DNA of 44,964 nucleotides from Pirellulales bacterium. Lineage in GTDB: Bacteria > Planctomycetota > Planctomycetia > Pirellulales > JADZDJ01. Below the pieces are notes generated by a model. That model saw only the letters and a list, made by a program, of their open reading frames with translations. It did not search any database and was not told the origin of the DNA. A program made the translations under genes and the position numbers. Shown here piece by piece: positions 9,132-24,408 of this stretch (positions are counted from its first letter, which is position 1; the number at the start of each line of letters is the position of its first letter). The DNA lies in contig DATJYL010000115.1 in assembly GCA_035499655.1 (NCBI GenBank), positions 1 through 44,964 on the forward strand, in the 5' to 3' direction.

Positions 9132-11459
9132 ATGTTCACGACCTTCGATGCCGTGTTTTCATCTTGGCCGGCGCAGCCGTGGCTGGCTGCAATGTTGCTT
9201 TTGACCGCGGCCGTTTTTGGACGCGGTTGGTCGAGACTACGGCGGCGTGATTTGTTCCGCTGGCCCGTTGGACGCCTGGCCGCATTTATCGGTGGGCTGG
9301 GCATTCTGTACGTGGCATTGGCATCGCCGATTGAAGCGTTCGCGCCATTGCTTCTGCAAGTGCACATGTTCCAGCATTTGCTGTTGATGATGGTGGTTCC
9401 CCCGCTGATTTGGCTCGGCGCACCATTTCTGCCGCTGTTGCGTGGTCTGCCTACTGAAATCCGCCGGTATTGGATTACGCCGCTGTTGCACTGGCGGCAA
9501 TTGCGTCGGGTGGCGACGGTTGTTACGCATCCGGTGACGGCGCTGTTGATTTTTGTCGCGGCCACATGGCTGTGGCATTTGCCCGGCCCGTATGAGACCG
9601 CGCTCGCCAGCGATGGGTGGCACAAAGTGCAGCATGCGTGTTTTCTGCTGGCCGGGTTGATTTTTTGGTATCCCGTCGTGCGACCATTTCCGGCGCGGCC
9701 AAGTTGGTCGCCGTGGTGGTTGGCGCCATACTTAATTCTTGCCGACGTGCAAAACACGCTGCTGTCGGCGTGGCTGACGTTTTCCGATCACCCCTTGTAT
9801 CCACATTACACTCAAATGCCGCGGCTGGACGGAATTTCGGCTTTGGACGATCAAGCTGCGGCCGGCGTGATCATGTGGGTGCCGGGCTCCTTGGTATTTT
9901 TAGCGCCGCTGCTTTGGATTGGCGTAGGGCTAATGCAAAGTCGGAGCGCGAAGCGGATTGCGCAGAAAAATCGAATATCCAAAACGTCTCGGACTCCGCA
10001 CTCCAAAATTCGAACTCCGCACTTTGATCTGCTTCAAGTCCGTTTTATCGGTGCAATCGTTCGCTGGCGCTGGACGCGGCGGCTGGTGCAGTTGGCCGTA
10101 CTACTGGTGGTTCTGGCGGTCATTGTCGATGGTTTTTATGGGCCGCAAGTGGGAGCGATGAATTTGGCCGGCGTGTTGCCGTGGATTCACTGGCGGGGAT
10201 TACTCATCATTGGGCTGCTTGTCGCCGGCAACGTGTTTTGCTACGGCTGTCCGTTTTTGCTGCCGCGCACCGTGGCTCGGTGGCTGTTTCACCGGCTTGG
10301 ACGTAGGTCGTGGCCCGCAGCCTTACGAACCAAATGGCTGGCGGTGGCGCTGGTGGCGATGTTCTTGTGGGCGTACGAAGCGTTTTCGCTATGGAACAGT
10401 CCGTGGCTGACTGCCTGGATTGCCATCGCTTACTTCGCCGGGGCCCTCGTGATCGATTCCATTTTTCGAGACGCGGCGTTTTGCAAATATGTGTGTCCAA
10501 TCGGACAGTTTAATTTTGTGCAATCGCTCGTTTCGCCGTGGGAGGTGCGGGTGCGGCAACCAGCGGTTTGCACTGCGTGCCGCACACATGATTGCATTCA
10601 GGGAAGCAACACCGCCCGTGGTTGCGAGTTGCAACTGTTTCAACCGCGAAAAGTAGGCAACCTCGACTGTACGTTCTGCTTAGATTGCGTGCAGGCCTGT
10701 CCCCAGGACAATGTGGGTATCATTGCCGTTTCTCCCACGACAAGTTTGTGGCGCGATGGACCCCGCTCTGGCATCGGACGGTTGAACCGGCGGGTTGATT
10801 ACGCGGCATTGGCCGTGGTATTGGTGTTTGGGGCGTTTGCCAACGCAGCGGGAATGGTGGGGCCAGTGGTCGATTGGCAACAAAACATCAGCGACGCTTG
10901 GGGAGCTTCGTCAACGCTTTTCGCCACGACGCTGCTTTACGTGCTGTGGCTGGTTGTGCTGCCGGCGATTTGCATAGGGCTGGCAGCGATAATAAGCCGT
11001 GGACTTGGGTTGCCCACGCGAACTTTGCGGGACATTAGTTGCCGTTTCGCCTGGACGCTGGCGCCGTTGGGATTTGCCATGTGGGCGGCGCATTACAGCT
11101 TTCACTTTTTTACCAGCTACGACGCTATTGTGCCGGTCACGCAGCAATTTGTCGCCAGACTTGGAATCGCTTCCTTCGGACCGCCCAACTGGGTTTGTTC
11201 CTGTTGCCGACCCGCTCCCGACTGGCTGCTGAAGGCGGAATTATTGATGCTTGACGTAGGCTTGCTGACTTCTGTATATGCAGTGTGGCGCGTAAGCCGG
11301 GCCCTTGTCGTTTTGCCAAACAACAGCAATAAAGCCGCCCAGTGGCAAATATTGAAAACCGCAGCACCCTGGATTTTGCTGCTTGTGGCATTGTTCGCGC
11401 TGGGCGTGTGGATATTACTTCAACCGATGCAGATGCGCGGCATGCTGCCGGGAGGATGA
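9132..11459 (+). CDS. CtaG-like copper/oxidase assembly domain fused to a membrane polyferredoxin
   Basis: 775 residues in two parts. Residues about 1-270 match the caa3-type CtaG family: seven helices, ASPIEAFAPLLLQVHMFQHLLLM, and histidines in HKVQHACFL; CtaG helps deliver copper to the oxidase. A polar linker (about 275-300) joins it to a second membrane protein with iron-sulfur motifs of the NapH/CcoG sort: CKYVCPIG from residue 451, a three-cysteine motif CTACRTHDC from 480, and CTFCLDCVQACP from 513. Further helices follow, with a CSCC motif at 689-692. The second part may pass electrons for copper or haem reduction during assembly. The linker DNA contains a short direct repeat, so the fusion may have arisen by loss of a stop in a spacer. 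Confidence 0.82.
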   Translation: MFTTFDAVFSSWPAQPWLAAMLLLTAAVFGRGWSRLRRRDLFRWPVGRLAAFIGGLGILYVALASPIEAFAPLLLQVHMFQHLLLMMVVPPLIWLGAPFLPLLRGLPTEIRRYWITPLLHWRQLRRVATVVTHPVTALLIFVAATWLWHLPGPYETALASDGWHKVQHACFLLAGLIFWYPVVRPFPARPSWSPWWLAPYLILADVQNTLLSAWLTFSDHPLYPHYTQMPRLDGISALDDQAAAGVIMWVPGSLVFLAPLLWIGVGLMQSRSAKRIAQKNRISKTSRTPHSKIRTPHFDLLQVRFIGAIVRWRWTRRLVQLAVLLVVLAVIVDGFYGPQVGAMNLAGVLPWIHWRGLLIIGLLVAGNVFCYGCPFLLPRTVARWLFHRLGRRSWPAALRTKWLAVALVAMFLWAYEAFSLWNSPWLTAWIAIAYFAGALVIDSIFRDAAFCKYVCPIGQFNFVQSLVSPWEVRVRQPAVCTACRTHDCIQGSNTARGCELQLFQPRKVGNLDCTFCLDCVQACPQDNVGIIAVSPTTSLWRDGPRSGIGRLNRRVDYAALAVVLVFGAFANAAGMVGPVVDWQQNISDAWGASSTLFATTLLYVLWLVVLPAICIGLAAIISRGLGLPTRTLRDISCRFAWTLAPLGFAMWAAHYSFHFFTSYDAIVPVTQQFVARLGIASFGPPNWVCSCCRPAPDWLLKAELLMLDVGLLTSVYAVWRVSRALVVLPNNSNKAAQWQILKTAAPWILLLVALFALGVWILLQPMQMRGMLPGG

Positions 11460-12016: not shown

Positions 12017-12067
12017 GAAAATCATGCCTGGGGTTCTTTGGTGATATGGTCTGGGGGAACGGAAACA

Positions 12068-13324
12068 ATGACCGCTTTTCAAGCACGCGAAATCGGAAGA
12101 TGTTTATTCTGGTCTCGTCAAACGCTGCTGGAACTGCTGATGGCCGGAATGGTGCTGACGCTTGCCGCCCGGACCTCGTTCGCTCAAGCACCTGATTCAG
12201 GTCAAACGCCTCCGGCAACAACCACGGGGTCTGCAAAAGAGACGGCTCCCACTACCCCCTCTACAACAACCCCATCGTCGGCCGCACAACGGCAACCACG
12301 GGCTCCCTTCTTCCAACGTGGGCCAGTCCAATATCTGAATCGCTCGGCGGAATGGTTCGCCAGCGACGATGCCAAGAAAATTGCCGCCAACATTTTGACA
12401 TATCAGGCAGATTTGGGGGGCTGGCCGAAGAACATCGATACCACGGCTAAACCCTACACCGGCGATCGTGAAAAGCTAGACCCTACCTTCGATAACTCGG
12501 CTACAACCGACGAATTGCGCTACCTGGCGCACATGTATCAAGCCACGCACGACGAGCAATATCGGGCCGCGATATTGAAAGGCATCGATTACATTTTGAA
12601 GGCCCAGTATCCCAACGGCGGATGGCCGCAATTCTATCCGCCGCATAACCACACGCCGTATCAGCGTTACATTACCTTCAACGACGATGCGATGGTGCGG
12701 TTAATGGAGTTCCTGCGTGAAGTTTACAGCAATGAACTTTTCGACTTTGTCGATGCCGACCGCCGGCAGGCGGCTCACACGGCGTTCAATAAGGGAATCG
12801 ATTGCATTTTGAAGTGCCAAATCAAGGTCGACGGTAAGCTGACCGTTTGGTGCGCCCAGCACGACGAAGTCGATTTCAGCCCGCGGCCTGCCCGGAGTTA
12901 CGAATTGGTTAGCCTCAGTGGCAGCGAATCAGTAGGCATTGTGCGACTGCTGATGAGCCTGGATCATCCCAGCCCGGAAGTCGTTCAGGCAGTAGACGGA
13001 GCAGTGTCATGGTTCGAGCAGGCCAAAATCACTGGGATTCGGGTTGAGCGCAGGCCCGATGCGAAAAGTCCCAAGGGCACCAACAAGGTTGTGGTGGAAG
13101 ACCCTAACGCACCGCCCATTTGGGCGCGATTTTACGAAATCGGCACGAATCGGCCCATTTTCAGCGATCGCGACGGTGTGGCCAAGCACGATTTATCGGA
13201 AATCGGCTATGAACGCCGTAACGGTTACAACTGGCTGGATTATTGGCCGGCGGCACTGCTGAAAAAGGAGTATCCCGTTTGGAAGACAAAGTTGGCGCAA
13301 GATTCCAGCTCCGCCACAAAGTGA
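12068..13324 (+). CDS. pelA: secreted pectate lyase, polysaccharide lyase family 10
   Basis: Cleaves polygalacturonate by beta-elimination outside the cytoplasm. ATG 12068 has GGGGAACGG upstream and gives 418 residues. A signal peptide ends near RTSFAQA, followed by a Pro/Thr/Ser-rich stretch (about residues 40-85). The catalytic domain shows typical PL10 blocks: GGWPKNID, TFDNSATTDELRYLA, YPNGGWPQFYP, ITFNDDAMVRLM, WCAQHDEVDFSPRPARSYE and NGYNWLDYWP. The family acts on pectate with Ca2+. A GH88 hydrolase that could act on the unsaturated products lies 5 kb downstream. Whether it is expressed with the preceding respiratory genes or alone is unclear; the gap is 51 bases. Confidence 0.9.
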   Translation: MTAFQAREIGRCLFWSRQTLLELLMAGMVLTLAARTSFAQAPDSGQTPPATTTGSAKETAPTTPSTTTPSSAAQRQPRAPFFQRGPVQYLNRSAEWFASDDAKKIAANILTYQADLGGWPKNIDTTAKPYTGDREKLDPTFDNSATTDELRYLAHMYQATHDEQYRAAILKGIDYILKAQYPNGGWPQFYPPHNHTPYQRYITFNDDAMVRLMEFLREVYSNELFDFVDADRRQAAHTAFNKGIDCILKCQIKVDGKLTVWCAQHDEVDFSPRPARSYELVSLSGSESVGIVRLLMSLDHPSPEVVQAVDGAVSWFEQAKITGIRVERRPDAKSPKGTNKVVVEDPNAPPIWARFYEIGTNRPIFSDRDGVAKHDLSEIGYERRNGYNWLDYWPAALLKKEYPVWKTKLAQDSSSATK

Positions 13325-13623: not shown

Positions 13624-14283
13624 ATGCTAACCGAATTGTTTTTGCGAATTGCGTTTATCGGGGCCGAATGGGTGCTGTGGCTGTTATTATTGCTGAGTTT
13701 TATCAGCGTGGGCATTATCGTCGATCGGTTGCTGTTCTTTCGCAGCAACTTGGAAGAGGATGAACAGCTCAACAATCAATTGCCCGAGTTTCTGCGAGCG
13801 GGCGACATCAAAGGCGCGTGGGAATTAGCCTCGGCTTCTGATTCCGTGGCCGGCAAAGTGCTGACCGCGGGATTGCAAACCATGCGGCGTGGGTCGGACG
13901 CTTGCAGCGAGGCGATGCAAAGCGCCAAGGCGAGATTTAAAGGATTGCTGGATGCTCGCCTTTCCGTGTTGGGCACCATTGGCGCCAACGCGCCGTTTAT
14001 CGGATTGATGGGCACCGTGCTGGGTGTCATCAAAGCTTCGAATGATTTGTCGGCCAAAGACCCGGATAAAATTATGTTCGGCGTGTTTCAAGCGCTCATC
14101 GCCACCGCCGTAGGGTTGTTTGTGGCTATCCCCGCTGTGGTGGCTTATAACTTTTTCCAACGTAAAGTGCGCACGGCGATGGCACAAATCGATTCGTTGG
14201 CGCACTTAGTGCTGGCCAATGTGCATGCCGCGGAACATCGGGGTACGGCCAATCAAGTTCCGCAGTCGGCCAAAGCAATTTAG
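13624..14283 (+). CDS. exbB: MotA/TolQ/ExbB proton-channel family protein
   Basis: Inner-membrane subunit of a proton-driven energy transducer. 219 residues with an N-terminal helix (LWLLLLLSFISVGIIVDRLLFF), a cytoplasmic domain, and the two conserved C-terminal helices: LGTIGANAPFIGLMGTVLGV and the segment from FQALIATAVGLFVAIPAVVAYN. GGGAG-like GGGAG is absent, but GGGAGC-type spacing is met by GGGAG at 13611 (GGGAGC), placing a usable ribosome-binding site before ATG 13624. It is followed by exbD after 66 bases. The partner TonB-like protein is probably the third gene of the cluster. Confidence 0.93.
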   Translation: MLTELFLRIAFIGAEWVLWLLLLLSFISVGIIVDRLLFFRSNLEEDEQLNNQLPEFLRAGDIKGAWELASASDSVAGKVLTAGLQTMRRGSDACSEAMQSAKARFKGLLDARLSVLGTIGANAPFIGLMGTVLGVIKASNDLSAKDPDKIMFGVFQALIATAVGLFVAIPAVVAYNFFQRKVRTAMAQIDSLAHLVLANVHAAEHRGTANQVPQSAKAI

Positions 14284-14349
14284 TGCTGCGCAGGAGCGAA
14301 AAATCAGTTTGCTTAAAATAAGGCGGCGCCGAGGCGATAAGGTGTATTC

Positions 14350-14790
14350 ATGGCAGCTTCTGTTTCATTCGGCGATGATGAAGGCGGCGGCGCCATAACC
14401 GATATCAACGTTACCCCGTTGGTTGACGTGGTGCTGGTGTTGTTGATCGTGTTCATGATCACGGTGCCGGCCATTGTCGGCAGTACGCCGGTCCGCGTCG
14501 ATTTACCCCAAACCGCCGCGGCCTTCGACCCCTCGGCTGAGCAGCTGCCGCTGAACATTTTCTTGAAGCGCGAGGAAGGCGGAAAAATTGCGCTCTATTG
14601 GAACGAGGAACAAGTGACAGAAGAACAATTTCGCTCACGATTGTCAGAGATGCATCCCGGCAAAGACCAGGAAGTTTCCATCTCCGCCGACAAAGACATC
14701 GCTTACGACAATGTGGTCCATGTGATGGACATGCTGGCCACGGTGGGCATCCATAAAATATCGTTACCCACCAAGCATGTAGCCAAGTAA
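14350..14790 (+). CDS. exbD: ExbD/TolR family biopolymer transport protein
   Basis: 146 residues with one N-terminal helix and a periplasmic domain. The helix begins INVTPLVDVVLVLLIVF and carries D26, the counterpart of the essential membrane aspartate (D25) of E. coli ExbD that carries protons. The periplasmic part ends VHVMDMLATVGIHKISLPT, the usual ExbD C-terminal block. With ExbB it should form a proton-driven motor that acts on the transmembrane helix of a TonB-like partner. The downstream gene, 79 bases away, encodes a protein with such a helix. Confidence 0.93.
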   Translation: MAASVSFGDDEGGGAITDINVTPLVDVVLVLLIVFMITVPAIVGSTPVRVDLPQTAAAFDPSAEQLPLNIFLKREEGGKIALYWNEEQVTEEQFRSRLSEMHPGKDQEVSISADKDIAYDNVVHVMDMLATVGIHKISLPTKHVAK

Positions 14791-14869
14791 AAGGCAAGCG
14801 GCAAAGTGGTGATAATGCGTTGTTGCTTTACGTCGACAGTTTTACCCGCCAGCCGAGGGCCAGCGGGCC

Positions 14870-16591
14870 ATGATGGATTCCAATTCCTTACCACCGGACG
14901 GAAATAGTGCCAGGCAATACTTGCCCCCGGCGGCAATTTCTGCTCCATCGGCGCCGGTTCCCGCGCACGCCGGCAATTATGGGTTGACTAGCACCGCCGC
15001 GCCGGCGACTTCCTCGCACTCCAATTTGGCCAATGTGCCAGTGGGGCACCTCCAACCGTTCCAACCCCACGACGACAGCGGTGAGTGGACCGAAGCCCTG
15101 CAAGATGCGCCACCGTGGCTGGGAAGTTTGGTCATCCACATGGTCTTGCTCATCGCGATGGGGCTGATGGTAGTCTCCTTGAAAAGCAAGGAAGTGGTTC
15201 CGATTCAAGCCATTTACGGCGACACTCATCAGCCCGGCGACCAATTGTTGGAAGATAATCGCGAGGGTCTCTCGACCGATACACCCGATCCCACGGTCGA
15301 TAAAACGATGTGGTCGCCCGTGGATTTGCCTCCCGTCTCCGATCCGTTGGCTCTGCCGCCGTTGGCGAGCGAGTTTTCGCCCCACGGCATGTTTTTGGGA
15401 ACCACCTCCAGACCCGCCGACGCGCCCATCGGTTTGGCGTTCACCGGTCGCGAACGTGGAATGAAGCGGGCATTACTTGGCCGCTATGGCGGCAACGCCA
15501 CGACTGAGGAAGCCGTGCACCAAGCTTTGGAATGGCTGAAACGGAACCAGCGTCCTAATGGCTTTTGGACGCTGAATGGTCCGTATACCGACGGCGGAGA
15601 GGCGGAAAACAAAACCACCTCCACTGCGCTCGCTTTGTTGGCCTTTCAAGGTGCGGGCTACACTCCGACAACGAACGGTGATTACAAGTACGATTACAAA
15701 CAAGTCGTCAAAAAAGGGTGGGACGCGCTCTTGAAAATGCAAGCCAACGATGGGGAGTTCTTAATCGAGAACTCTCCCTCATATCATCAAATGTACAGCC
15801 ATGCTCAAGCAACCATAGCCATATGTGAATTGTACGGCATGACGCACGATTCCGTTTATCGCGGTCCGGCGGAGAAAGCAGTCAGATTTTGTGTGAACTC
15901 GCAAGATGCGGCCGGCGGCTGGCGCTATAACCCGAATTCGGATTCCGACACATCAGTCACCGGCTGGTTCGTGATGGCCTTGCAAAGCGCCAGGATGGCC
16001 GGCCTGGAAGTGCCCAGCAGCACCTTCATGAATATCTCCCGGTATTTGGACAGCGTTCAAGACGAATCGGGCAGCCGATATCACTATCAGATCGGCGGTG
16101 CTCTCAACCATGCCATGACCGCGGAAGCCTTGTTGTGCCGCGAATATTTAGGCTGGAAGCAAGACGATCCGCGGTTGGTGGGGGGCGTGGAATTTCTGTC
16201 GGACCAGCCCATTACCGATATGGAAATCAACGTTTACTATTGGTATTACGCCACGCAGGTCATGCATCACATCGGCGGGAATTATTGGAAACGGTGGAAC
16301 GAAGTGATGCGGCAATTTATTCCCGAAACGCAAGTCAAAAAGGGACCGGAAGCAGGCAGTTGGGATCCGGCCGGCGACCGCTGGGGTGGGCAAGGAGGCC
16401 GGCTGTACGTCACTTGCCTACGAACTTTCATGCTGGAAGTTTATTACCGCCATCTGCCGATTTACGGCGACATCTACCAGCCCGGAATTGCGGAAGCCAG
16501 CGCGCCGCAAACGCAACCGACGCCAGACAAAACAGACACGAAGTCGGATGCTGAGCAGCCGAAAGTTGAACAACCCAAGTCCGAGAATTGA
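14870..16591 (+). CDS. TonB-like transmembrane anchor fused to a squalene-cyclase-type alpha/alpha toroid
   Basis: 573 residues. The first 80 are rich in Pro, Ala and Ser and would be cytoplasmic. A single helix (about 84-106, LGSLVIHMVLLIAMGLMVV) contains S86 and H90 in an S-x-x-x-H arrangement, as in the E. coli TonB anchor (SVCIH). A disordered spacer (about 110-205) leads to a toroid domain of prenyltransferase/squalene-oxidase repeats: EALE-like helix WLKRNQRPNGFWTL near 225, then FCVNSQDAAGGWRYNP and further QW-like repeats ending with DRWGGQGGRLYVTCLRTF. The acidic DxDD motif of class II cyclases is not seen, so a binding role is more likely than cyclisation. The C-terminal tail is charged. 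Start: ATG 14870 or 14873. The stop lies 2 bases from the convergent dehydrogenase gene. Confidence 0.8.
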   Translation: MMDSNSLPPDGNSARQYLPPAAISAPSAPVPAHAGNYGLTSTAAPATSSHSNLANVPVGHLQPFQPHDDSGEWTEALQDAPPWLGSLVIHMVLLIAMGLMVVSLKSKEVVPIQAIYGDTHQPGDQLLEDNREGLSTDTPDPTVDKTMWSPVDLPPVSDPLALPPLASEFSPHGMFLGTTSRPADAPIGLAFTGRERGMKRALLGRYGGNATTEEAVHQALEWLKRNQRPNGFWTLNGPYTDGGEAENKTTSTALALLAFQGAGYTPTTNGDYKYDYKQVVKKGWDALLKMQANDGEFLIENSPSYHQMYSHAQATIAICELYGMTHDSVYRGPAEKAVRFCVNSQDAAGGWRYNPNSDSDTSVTGWFVMALQSARMAGLEVPSSTFMNISRYLDSVQDESGSRYHYQIGGALNHAMTAEALLCREYLGWKQDDPRLVGGVEFLSDQPITDMEINVYYWYYATQVMHHIGGNYWKRWNEVMRQFIPETQVKKGPEAGSWDPAGDRWGGQGGRLYVTCLRTFMLEVYYRHLPIYGDIYQPGIAEASAPQTQPTPDKTDTKSDAEQPKVEQPKSEN

Positions 16592-18282: not shown

Positions 18283-19401
18283 ATGGCCGACGCCCGAATC
18301 ACCCGCTACACACAGGCCTTGCAATTTGCCGAACGGCAAGTGGCGGGGCTGGTGCAAAAGCATCCCGATTTCTTTCCCATTTATACGGTGCAGGGCAAGT
18401 GGCATCACGAGGGTGAATTGTGGACTGATTGGACGGGCGGCTTTTTGGCGGGCATGATGTGGCAATTTCATCGTCGCACCGGCAATCCGGAGTGGCGCCA
18501 ACGGGCGGAACATTATTCCAAGCTGCTGGAGCAGCGGCAGTTCGATCGCAAAGTGCATGATCTGGGCTTCATTTTCTTGAACACGTATTTGCCGTGGTAT
18601 CAACTGACGCACGATCCAAAATTGAATGAGGTGCTGATTCAGGCGGGCCGCACGTTGGCGATGCGGTTCATGGAAAAGGGGCAGTATTTGCAATCGTTTG
18701 TCGCGCCGGATTCGCTGTTCATCGACATCATGATGAACGTACCGATTATTTTTTATGCCGCCCAGGAAACCAGCGACACCAACCTGTTTCGCATCGCTAC
18801 GGCCCATTGCCGGACGACGCGAGATACCATTGTCCGGTCCGACGGTTCCACGGCCCACGAAGGGGTGTTCGATTTGCAAACCGGCAAGTTCCTGCGTCAA
18901 ACCACGCACCAGGGGTTGCGGGCCGACAGCGCCTGGGCCCGCGGCTTGGCGTGGTCGCTGTACGGCTACAGCAAAGTGTTCGCGCTGACCAGCAGCAGCG
19001 AGTTTCTGGAAGTGGCGCAGCGGAACGCCGATTACTGGCTGGGGCATTTGCCGGCCGACAAAGTTTCGTTCTGGGATTTCAACGCCGATTTGTCGCAGTC
19101 GCCGCCCTGGGGCGCCCAAAAAGAAACTTCCGCCAGCGCGATTGCCGCCAGCGGACTGTTGGATTTGGCCGGGCAAACCAAATCGCGCGAGCGGGCAACC
19201 GCTTACCGCGAAACCGCTCTGGCCATGCTCGATGCTTTGTGCCAGCCGCAGTATCTGGCCATCGATACTCCGAGATGGGAAGGCATTTTGAAACATGGGG
19301 TATATCACACTAAGAAAAACCTGGGAGTGGACGAATCGGTGATGTGGGGAGAGTTTTTCTTCGTCGAAGCACTAACGAAAGCGGTGCAGGCGAATTCATA
19401 G
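18283..19401 (+). CDS. unsaturated glucuronyl/galacturonyl hydrolase, glycoside hydrolase family 88
   Basis: Removes the 4,5-unsaturated uronic acid left by polysaccharide lyases through hydration of the double bond. 372 residues, as usual for the family, with no obvious signal peptide, so it is probably cytoplasmic. The two aspartates used by known GH88 enzymes appear to be D93 (in KVHDLGFIF) and D148 (in SLFIDIMMNVP). Further conserved blocks are LWTDWTGGFLAGMMW, SAWARGLAWSLYGY and the C-terminal GVDESVMWGEFFFVEAL. Together with the PL10 lyase it could complete pectin breakdown, although the two genes are 5 kb apart. A 6-bp stem (19401-19422) follows the stop but has no T-run. Confidence 0.92.
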   Translation: MADARITRYTQALQFAERQVAGLVQKHPDFFPIYTVQGKWHHEGELWTDWTGGFLAGMMWQFHRRTGNPEWRQRAEHYSKLLEQRQFDRKVHDLGFIFLNTYLPWYQLTHDPKLNEVLIQAGRTLAMRFMEKGQYLQSFVAPDSLFIDIMMNVPIIFYAAQETSDTNLFRIATAHCRTTRDTIVRSDGSTAHEGVFDLQTGKFLRQTTHQGLRADSAWARGLAWSLYGYSKVFALTSSSEFLEVAQRNADYWLGHLPADKVSFWDFNADLSQSPPWGAQKETSASAIAASGLLDLAGQTKSRERATAYRETALAMLDALCQPQYLAIDTPRWEGILKHGVYHTKKNLGVDESVMWGEFFFVEALTKAVQANS

Positions 19402-22124: not shown

Positions 22125-22764
22125 GAGCAGCCGGTGGCCCGACGCCGTTGACCACTCGAAACATGGGGGCTTCGACGCCGGCGCCGATCCGAAATATCGG
22201 CTTGGACGCCAGCCAGCTCGGAACGACTTTTGTTCGGGGCGGCGGGCCAGTGAGCCGAGAAATCTCGGCAAGCCGGCGCGGGACGGCGCACAAACGTTGG
22301 CAAGTTTACGTTTGTTTTCGCCTGCGGCCGACCGCATTGTGAAATTAGGCAAGTGAATTTTCTCGACAAATTCACTTGCGGATGGTTGGCTTTTGTACAG
22401 GCCGCGCACAAAAGTACGGGGCCATGTCCAGGCGGAGAGGCAGACTTCCATCATGTCAGCCAGGTGTTGCCACGCCTGGGCTTGGATATGTGCATTCGAA
22501 TTGCCAAAGAGCGATGTCTTCCGGTTGAGGGAAGAAGATCGTCGGCAGTTTTAGCAGGTGCTGGCCCAAAACTCGAATGGATTATTGATTGTGGAAAATC
22601 CAAATGCCGAAGGATGGCTTTTCCAACAGGTACGGCCGGGCTATGTTCAAATTGTGGTAGGACAAATTTTAGGCGGCGCTTGCGCGAATCGCCATAAAAT
22701 GGAGCTTTTCCGGCAGGGTACGCACCGCCGGCTACCCATAACAGGCTGCATTGAGGACAGCGAA
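22125..22764. other. 640-base gene-free stretch with two hairpins
   Basis: No credible gene. It holds a 7-bp inverted repeat (GCCGAGA at 22254-22260 with TCTCGGC at 22263-22269) and a stronger 12-bp hairpin at 22349-22379, listed separately. Open frames here are short, lack family resemblance and have no ribosome-binding site. The stretch probably contains the 3' end of the surface-protein transcript and the promoter of the downstream regulator-like gene. Confidence 0.45.
22349..22379. repeat. perfect 12-bp inverted repeat with 7-base loop
   Basis: GCAAGTGAATTT (22349-22360), loop TCTCGAC, AAATTCACTTGC (22368-22379). The pairing is perfect. No T-run follows on either strand, so a classical intrinsic terminator is doubtful. 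It could be an RNA stem in the leader of the gene at 22765 or an operator. Confidence 0.6.
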
Positions 22765-24408
22765 ATGGCCAAAATCGAAGAAGTCGCATTTCCCCGACTC
22801 ACCAGTGCCGAAATTGCGCTGGTCAAACCATTGGCAACTCCGTGCGAGTACGCCGATGGCGAAATTATTTTTCGCGCCGGTCAAGCAGAAATCGATTTGT
22901 ACATTGTTGAATCGGGTGCAATCGAAATCCAAAATCCGACGGACAGCCATCGGCTGATCGTCGTTCACGAAGCGGGGCAATTTTCCGGCGACATCGACCT
23001 GCTGACCGGCCGCCCGGTGATTGTGACCGCCGTGGCCCGGGGCGCAACACGTGTGTTGCGCATTCCTCATCGCCATCTGCGGGCGCTTTTGAACCGGGTT
23101 CCCAGCTTCGGCGAGAAGTTGATTGTCGCGTTTACCCGGCGTCGAGAGCTGCTTTCTCAAATGGGCACGCTGGGGCTGCGTGTGGTTGGCGCCGGCCGAT
23201 GCCGCGACACCAATGCCGTTCGTGAGTTTTTGTATAAAAATTTCGTCCCGTTTACCTGGTTCGATCCGGAAACGGAAGACGGGCAGCGCGTATTTGCATC
23301 GCTGGGCTCACCCAAAAAAACACCGGTCATTGAATGCGGCAATGGACGTGTTCTGATTAATCCTTCGCTGCAAGAACTTGCCCGCGAGGCCGGCATTTGG
23401 AAACTTTGCCCCACGCAGGAAGTCGACCTGGCGATCGTTGGGGCAGGCCCGGCGGGAATTGCGGCCGGCGTGTATGCCTCGTCGGAAGGCCTGTCCACGT
23501 TAATGCTGGACCGGATGGGACCGGGCGGTCAGGCGGGCGGTTCGTCACGCATTGAAAACTTCATTGGCTTTCCGGCGGGGTTGAGCGGCGCGGACCTGGC
23601 CACGCGCGGCGTGTTGCAAATGCTAAAGTTTGGGGCGCGGATCGTTACGCCCGTTGAGGTCCAGCGGCTGGTTCCGGCTCGATCGGTCGACGATTGGCAC
23701 GTGCTGCAACTGGATTGCGGCGCGGAAATTCGCTGCCGGGTGTTGCTGCTGGCCTTGGGGGTTCGATGGCGGCAATTGGAAGCCACGGGAGCGGCCCGGT
23801 ATGCCGGCGCGGGTATTTATTACGCCTGCACGACGGTGGAAGCCGACCTTTACGACGGCACCGATGTCGCCGTGGTGGGCGGCGGCAACTCGGCCGGACA
23901 GGCCGTGATGTTCCTGGCGGAGTGCTGCCCTTCGCGGACGGTGCATTTACTGGTCCGCCGCCCGTTGGGCCCCGGCATGTCGGAGTATTTGTCGCAGCGG
24001 ATCCGAGCAACCCGCAATGTGATGATTCACGAAAAAACCGAAATTGAAGCGATTTATGGAAGCCGCAACATCGAAGAGATTGAACTGAAAAATAACGCCA
24101 CGAAGGAGCGGCGTCGCATTCCCTGCTCGGCGGTGTTCGTGTTTATCGGGGCGGAGCCGTCGGCTGAGTGGCTGCCGGCTGAAATTGCCCGCGATGCCAA
24201 TGGATATGTTCTGACCGGCACCGATGTTGTGCGTTCCGGATTATGGCCGCGCACGGACCGCGACCCTTGCCCCTTGGAAACTACGGTTCCGCGAGTGCTG
24301 GCGGCCGGCGACATCCGTTCGGGATCGACCAAACGAGTTGGATTTGCGGTTGGCGACGGCTCGCTGGCGGTGACCTGCGCCCATCGGCTGCTTTCGATCA
24401 GCCGTTAA
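22765..24408 (+). CDS. cyclic-nucleotide-binding domain fused to thioredoxin-reductase-like FAD oxidoreductase
   Basis: 547 residues from ATG 22765 (MAKIEE). Residues about 15-125 form a cNMP-binding (CRP/FNR sensor) fold with GEIIFRAGQAEIDLYIVESG and the GQFSGDIDLLTGRPV segment. Residues about 132-215 look like a glutaredoxin/thioredoxin fold without an active-site CxxC (NFVPFTWFDPET, KKTPVIECGNGRVL). The rest is a TrxR-like oxidoreductase with FAD motif GAGPAGIAAGVYASSEG and NAD motif VVGGGNSAGQAV. The redox CxxC of true thioredoxin reductases is replaced by YACTTVEA with one cysteine (C355). It may therefore sense or transfer hydride rather than reduce thioredoxin. The last 11 bases overlap the convergent gene downstream. 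Confidence 0.87.
   Translation: MAKIEEVAFPRLTSAEIALVKPLATPCEYADGEIIFRAGQAEIDLYIVESGAIEIQNPTDSHRLIVVHEAGQFSGDIDLLTGRPVIVTAVARGATRVLRIPHRHLRALLNRVPSFGEKLIVAFTRRRELLSQMGTLGLRVVGAGRCRDTNAVREFLYKNFVPFTWFDPETEDGQRVFASLGSPKKTPVIECGNGRVLINPSLQELAREAGIWKLCPTQEVDLAIVGAGPAGIAAGVYASSEGLSTLMLDRMGPGGQAGGSSRIENFIGFPAGLSGADLATRGVLQMLKFGARIVTPVEVQRLVPARSVDDWHVLQLDCGAEIRCRVLLLALGVRWRQLEATGAARYAGAGIYYACTTVEADLYDGTDVAVVGGGNSAGQAVMFLAECCPSRTVHLLVRRPLGPGMSEYLSQRIRATRNVMIHEKTEIEAIYGSRNIEEIELKNNATKERRRIPCSAVFVFIGAEPSAEWLPAEIARDANGYVLTGTDVVRSGLWPRTDRDPCPLETTVPRVLAAGDIRSGSTKRVGFAVGDGSLAVTCAHRLLSISR

Follow-up and report, generated by a model that had tools for sequence, protein, structure and literature searches.

ExbBD/TolQR motors drive TonB and TolA, and the locus described here raises the question of what such a motor drives when the gene beside it encodes a membrane-anchored protein of another kind. 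The window, i.e., the whole stretch of 44,964 nucleotides that we analyzed, lies on contig C115 of a Pirellulales bacterium draft genome (G000; 4.5 Mb, 97% complete). An earlier note on this DNA had placed exbB, exbD and a gene for a 573-residue protein together on one strand, and the coordinates of the three open reading frames agree with this, with intergenic gaps of 66 and 79 bases. The features of the locus are as follows.

13624..14283, + strand: exbB/tolQ-type proton channel subunit, 219 aa (Pfam MotA_ExbB, 3.1e-29)
14350..14790, + strand: exbD/tolR-type subunit, 146 aa, with proton-site Asp26 (Pfam ExbD, 2e-25)
14870..16591, + strand: candidate toroid arm protein, 573 aa, made up of an N-terminal segment, a transmembrane (TM) helix, a disordered linker and an alpha/alpha toroid (AlphaFold2 model, family alignments A1 and A2)
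15113..15178, + strand: TM anchor helix, residues 82-103 (AlphaFold2 pLDDT about 93; S86 at 15125-15127, H90 at 15137-15139)
15179..15427, + strand: disordered linker, about residues 104-186 (pLDDT mostly <60; alignment highly variable)
15428..16459, + strand: alpha/alpha toroid domain, about residues 187-530, with QW-type repeats and no DxDD (AlphaFold2 and VIA-align)

Judged by their sequences against solved structures, the products of the window exbB and exbD are ordinary TolQ/ExbB- and ExbD/TolR-like proteins. The window ExbB matches TolQ/ExbB chains in the PDB at 1e-14 to 1e-11, and its MotA_ExbB domain contains both pore threonines (T131 and T161), as do all 47 of the 47 ExbBs collected. 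The ExbD domain carries a TM aspartate, D26, which aligns with the Asp of solved PDB ExbD chains, confirming the motor pair and proton site of the earlier note; the essential Asp of E. coli ExbD is Asp25 (PMC12905483). Identity of the window ExbB to the other ExbBs of the class found in our class-wide search reaches 37% at most, and this ExbB has a Val where TM1 of E. coli ExbB/TolQ has a conserved Trp, with the co-variation of Ser and Trp on ExbB TM1 being anecdotal.

Our AlphaFold2 model of the 573-aa protein (ma0eb3df21d3c; input, a 65-sequence alignment) contains a single long TM helix with disorder on either side and a toroid (about 187-528) at pLDDT 87-98, i.e., a folded C-terminal domain behind a disordered linker, as in the force transducers. 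The best fold match of this toroid by VIA-align is squalene-hopene cyclase 2sqc_A (Z 26.5, 3.2 A, 288 residues), followed by sugar epimerases and GH76-type barrels/glycoside hydrolases at Z 22-23; a fold that the model has in common with cyclases and epimerases shows no function. Pfam searches returned sub-threshold cyclase/toroid matches only (SQHop_cyclase_C, 8e-6) and no match to TonB_C or to the TolA C-terminal domain, so that the toroid proposed in place of a TonB C-terminal domain is borne out by both model and domain search. Our motif scan likewise found the QW-like motifs expected in the toroid domain and no DxDD catalytic motif anywhere in the protein. The earlier note had looked to clear cyclase catalytic residues as evidence against its proposal; with DxDD lost, we rejected a squalene/terpene cyclase reading. 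The likeness to squalene-hopene and class II terpene cyclases is thus one of toroid fold (Z 26) and QW-type repeats, whereas the window toroid has no DxDD, is about 16-19% identical to them and is TM-anchored behind a linker.

PL10 pectate lyases are alpha/alpha toroid relatives themselves, and a PL10 gene (12038-13324) immediately precedes the trio on its strand. This neighbour is a clear PL10 member (Pfam Pec_lyase, 2.6e-109), whereas the 573-aa toroid has a weak similarity to the same profile (1.7e-4, under the cut-off) and is not PL10; in the other loci fetched, no toroid was found to have a PL10 gene beside it. A GH88-family protein is encoded downstream of the trio (18283-19401), so that both pectate lyase and GH88 genes lie near the toroid. 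Further genes in the window encode a 775-aa protein (9132-11459) that starts with a CtaG domain and continues into a long C-terminal part in which CxxC/4Fe4S-like motifs are seen by eye, and a cyclic-nucleotide-binding domain followed by a fused pyridine nucleotide-disulphide oxidoreductase (22558-24408).

The single TM helix had been proposed to carry the S-x-x-x-H pattern of TonB, and our analysis confirmed this, with S86-L-V-I-H90 located inside helix 82-103 and with the Ser/His spacing of E. coli TonB (S16/H20) and TolA (S18/H22). The conservation of S-x3-H in the toroid helix exceeds chance: the motif is present within the helix in 85 of the 92 homologues with a recognizable toroid start and a TM segment, compared with 41 of 2534 TM segments (1.6%) in non-toroid open reading frames of the same loci, a background that includes genuine TonB and vWA transducers. 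An unselected alignment contains the Ser in 42 of 47 sequences and the His in 39 of 47, and in a 16-member alignment no residue before 194 is invariant except S86 and H90. Alignment A2 was built from members selected for S-x3-H, and we excluded it as evidence of conservation, using the 85/92 count and the unselected alignment instead. The full SHLS motif is S-3x-H-6x-L-3x-S (PMC12905483); in the 85 family members position +11 is Leu in 61 and Met in 10 (M97 in the window), and the last Ser, at +15, is kept in only 8 (V101 in the window). The seven exceptions comprise a protein that begins with a signal-peptide-like segment (L089_1130), one with a lipobox-like GLSSGC instead of S-x3-H (L058), one with C-x3-H (L152), two with S-x3-N (L153 and L162) and two in which the motif is missing (L081 and L085), with L081 nonetheless adjoining exbBD. 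Ser and His, whose variation among orthologues would have spoken against the proposal, are instead conserved phylum-wide.

An N-in/C-out orientation is favoured by the charge bias of the family and by zinc-ribbon-like N-termini. In 129 members, the sequence flanking the helix contains 3.0 K+R before it versus 1.9 after it, with a net charge of -0.1 before versus -2.6 after, and zinc-ribbon-like cysteines precede the helix in 13 of the 129. It is from this family-wide bias that we infer a periplasmic location for the toroid, since the helix flanks of the window protein itself are ambiguous in charge and not decisive.

Our search for relatives identified toroid homologues in 179 of 199 sampled Planctomycetota genomes, often several per genome, a count that includes secreted toroids. 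A single-protein scan of genome contigs gave no relatives, which were recovered by profile; at least 80 named relatives come from GTDB genomes and, among the matches listed, all are planctomycetes. Profile searches of individual genomes yielded anchored toroids, of which G000 has three, and short secreted ones (about 350-400 aa). These secreted toroids, which have signal peptides, serve as an internal control, in that they retain the core aromatic residues and are missing the S/H. Residues common to anchored and secreted toroids are Q227, W233, Y309, W351, Y353, D360, Y406, Y456, Y459, Y460 and W498, and a further set (R194, R424, N477, R511, E523, Y525 and R527) is largely invariant in the anchored forms and mostly absent from the secreted ones. 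This anchored-specific set points to a probable conserved interaction surface or pocket, for which we would favour the binding of an envelope component over catalysis. In G000, short secreted toroids without a TM anchor (C182 and C204; L181 and L180) are located near genes that by eye look to be of the BatA/DUF58 aerotolerance type. We found no description of toroid arms in the open-access literature searched, where absence is no proof, and they are apparently an undescribed as well as widespread planctomycete inner-membrane family.

Examination of the neighbourhoods showed that most family members are solo genes with no adjoining exbB/exbD, including the closest orthologues of the window protein (L073, L090-L106). 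Orthologues regularly found without adjoining ExbB/ExbD, which the earlier note had named as evidence against it, do therefore occur; they do not break the model, since 117 solo copies retain both S and H and ExbB-type genes are present in 39 of 39 genomes of the class. In the toroid tree (the rooting of which is arbitrary), at least four branches, scattered among solo members, have copies adjacent to exbB/exbD, and of the 19 such copies that carry labels in that tree 18 retain the His. For example, a TPR-exbB-exbD-toroid arrangement, with a long toroid protein containing extra TM helices, occurs in two separate clades (the L050/L062/L072/L075 type and the L055/L061/L149/L166 type), and family f83 has the order exbB-exbD-exbD-X-toroid in 8 of 8 genomes, with S-x3-H in every case and, in one (L263), with the toroid gene call fused to X. 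Protein X, which lies between exbD and the toroid gene in each of these f83 genomes and has a homologue adjoining a toroid in f84 (L264), is secreted, is about 500 aa long and belongs to no Pfam family (L256:6723-8261, L257:6764-8335, L261:3827-5377 and relatives).

The window-type trio is also present in G001 (L070). The gene order toroid-Ldh_2-GH88 is kept in both G001 and G002, and L107 likewise has a GH88 homologue downstream of its toroid. In the sister genus G002 the syntenic toroid (L073) has no exbBD, so the window trio looks recent, with the motor pair most simply gained beside an existing solo toroid in the window genus, or else lost in G002. Neighbourhood clustering around solo toroids found no family-wide conserved partner; an FHA/Ser-Thr kinase cluster was rejected on account of its mixed strands and distances, and many other clusters were rejected as antisense shadow ORFs. 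Linkage to the motor therefore stands, on several branches and throughout f83, and strict three-gene linkage as a family trait does not, most members being solo. The framing as a strict trio is too narrow: the trio is not obligate, and these proteins are better regarded as a family of toroid arms that draw on shared motors.

Genome-wide domain searches of G000, a 97% draft with two ExbD genes, found no TonB_C, no TonB_2 and no TolA, and the best vWA match in it begins like a lipoprotein and lacks S-x3-H. This genome also encodes a lone 427-aa MotA_ExbB protein (C95:56690-56992; L052:8319-9602) with a weak match to the GldM N-terminal domain in its C-terminal half, beside which no exbD was found. 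Three complete single-contig genomes (G026, G050 and G183) and the near-complete G089 all contain anchored toroids and ExbB, and our searches of these four found no TonB_C, no TolA and no TonB-dependent receptor barrel; G026, G050 and G183 contain vWA proteins with the same S-x3-H helix. Across the phylum TonB_C is present in 139 of 198 genomes, many of which hold TonB_C and toroids together, so that toroids are no simple replacement for TonB. Two TonB-dependent-receptor barrels are present in G000 (C221:7933-9351 and C244:2888-4084; L224 and L225), and the single-contig G169 has one such receptor and no TonB_C.

In the reading that we consider probable, the 573-aa protein serves as a force-transducer arm for a proton motor of the ExbB5-ExbD2 type, with the toroid gripping a target. 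The single TM helix would dock outside the ExbB ring via the same Ser/His face as TonB and TolA, the disordered linker would span the periplasm, and the alpha/alpha toroid would form the effector end, gripping a putative outer-membrane, peptidoglycan or glycan component, such that the proton motive force would be turned into a pull on, or displacement of, whatever is gripped. Solo toroid proteins would be alternative arms sharing the motors of the genome. Coupling to the motor is in each case predicted from sequence. The motor pair, helix, fold and S/H conservation all support the proton-driven machine with a toroid effector arm that the earlier note had proposed, and strict three-gene linkage falls away. 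Counting against such an arm are the rarely kept +15 Ser, the Met at +11 in the window, the unlinked majority, the few motif-less relatives, the Trp-to-Val change in TM1 of the window ExbB and the lack of a conserved partner in the neighbourhood analysis.

Three other explanations have to be weighed. The toroid may act mainly as an enzyme or as a binding protein, of a glycan lyase/epimerase-like or lipid-handling kind, which is docked on ExbBD for localization or regulation and transmits no force. We regard this as unlikely, in that an S/H helix with a long disordered linker is also how the TonB, TolA and vWA transducers are laid out, DxDD is missing, and the anchored toroids have their own largely invariant residue set; the core residues common to anchored and secreted forms would nevertheless suit a common ligand or catalytic pocket (though many of them are part of structural QW repeats), as would the fold matches to sugar epimerases and glycoside hydrolases and the nearby pectate lyase and GH88 genes. 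That the toroid stands in for TonB, energizing the few TonB-dependent receptors of these genomes, fits the two receptor barrels of G000 and the single one of the complete G169, neither genome having TonB_C, but G000 is a draft, the searches may have overlooked a divergent TonB, and with toroids and ExbB present in four genomes with zero receptors (G026, G050, G089 and G183) we hold this to be distinctly improbable. The mostly solo relatives and the syntenic sister-genus toroid without exbBD would be explained if a motor pair and an unrelated membrane-anchored toroid had come to lie together by chance; linkage on at least four branches and in every f83 genome makes this very hard to credit, and it was already disfavoured by the conservation of the motor-binding residues throughout.

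The most economical reading is a toroid-type SHLS force transducer, parallel to the SHLS-helix vWA force transducers published in 2025 from PVC and other bacteria (PMC12204202, Mol Biol Evol). Both have an N-terminal S-x3-H TM helix, a disordered linker and a C-terminal domain unrelated to TonB/TolA, both are linked to exbB/exbD-type genes and a TPR gene, and the toroid-family profile matches vWA proteins through the N-terminal TM/linker part, with the same S-x3-H; the C-terminal domain of the toroid family is, however, an alpha/alpha toroid and not a vWA domain, and the words "toroid" and "squalene" do not occur in the text of PMC12204202. Loci L174-L178, from planctomycete genomes, encode vWA proteins whose anchor helix contains S-x3-H; three of the five loci have them as tandem pairs, and no exbB/exbD was found in the stretches fetched. 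With TonB/TolA the family has in common an S-x3-H-x6-L helix and, as predicted, an N-in anchor, a periplasmic arm and an ExbBD/TolQR partner, and it differs in having no TonB_C or TolA C-terminal domain, in not conserving the last SHLS Ser, and in having a long N-terminal segment, the first Ser of the helix motif being preceded by a median of about 96 residues. The claim that this locus was the best candidate for an undescribed system is tempered by the published vWA transducers: the toroid arm is apparently undescribed, but the kind of machine is already known, and the toroid is a new arm on it rather than a categorically new machine.

Whether this extends to the phylum is, in our estimate, evenly balanced: across Planctomycetota, multi-copy toroid (and vWA) arms may replace TonB/TolA for proton-driven envelope work, possibly on a glycan, peptidoglycan or outer-membrane partner, and may be the only recognizable ExbBD clients in some lineages. 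If true, the motor would be a power source of general use, with unrelated effector domains attached to it. Recognizing the toroid arms would also put right a likely misannotation, given the matches of these proteins to squalene-cyclase models. They are a concrete candidate for how planctomycetes without TonB, TolA and TonB-dependent receptors energize the outer membrane or the handling of macromolecules, and suggest a new route by which planctomycetes may perform mechanical work across the cell envelope.
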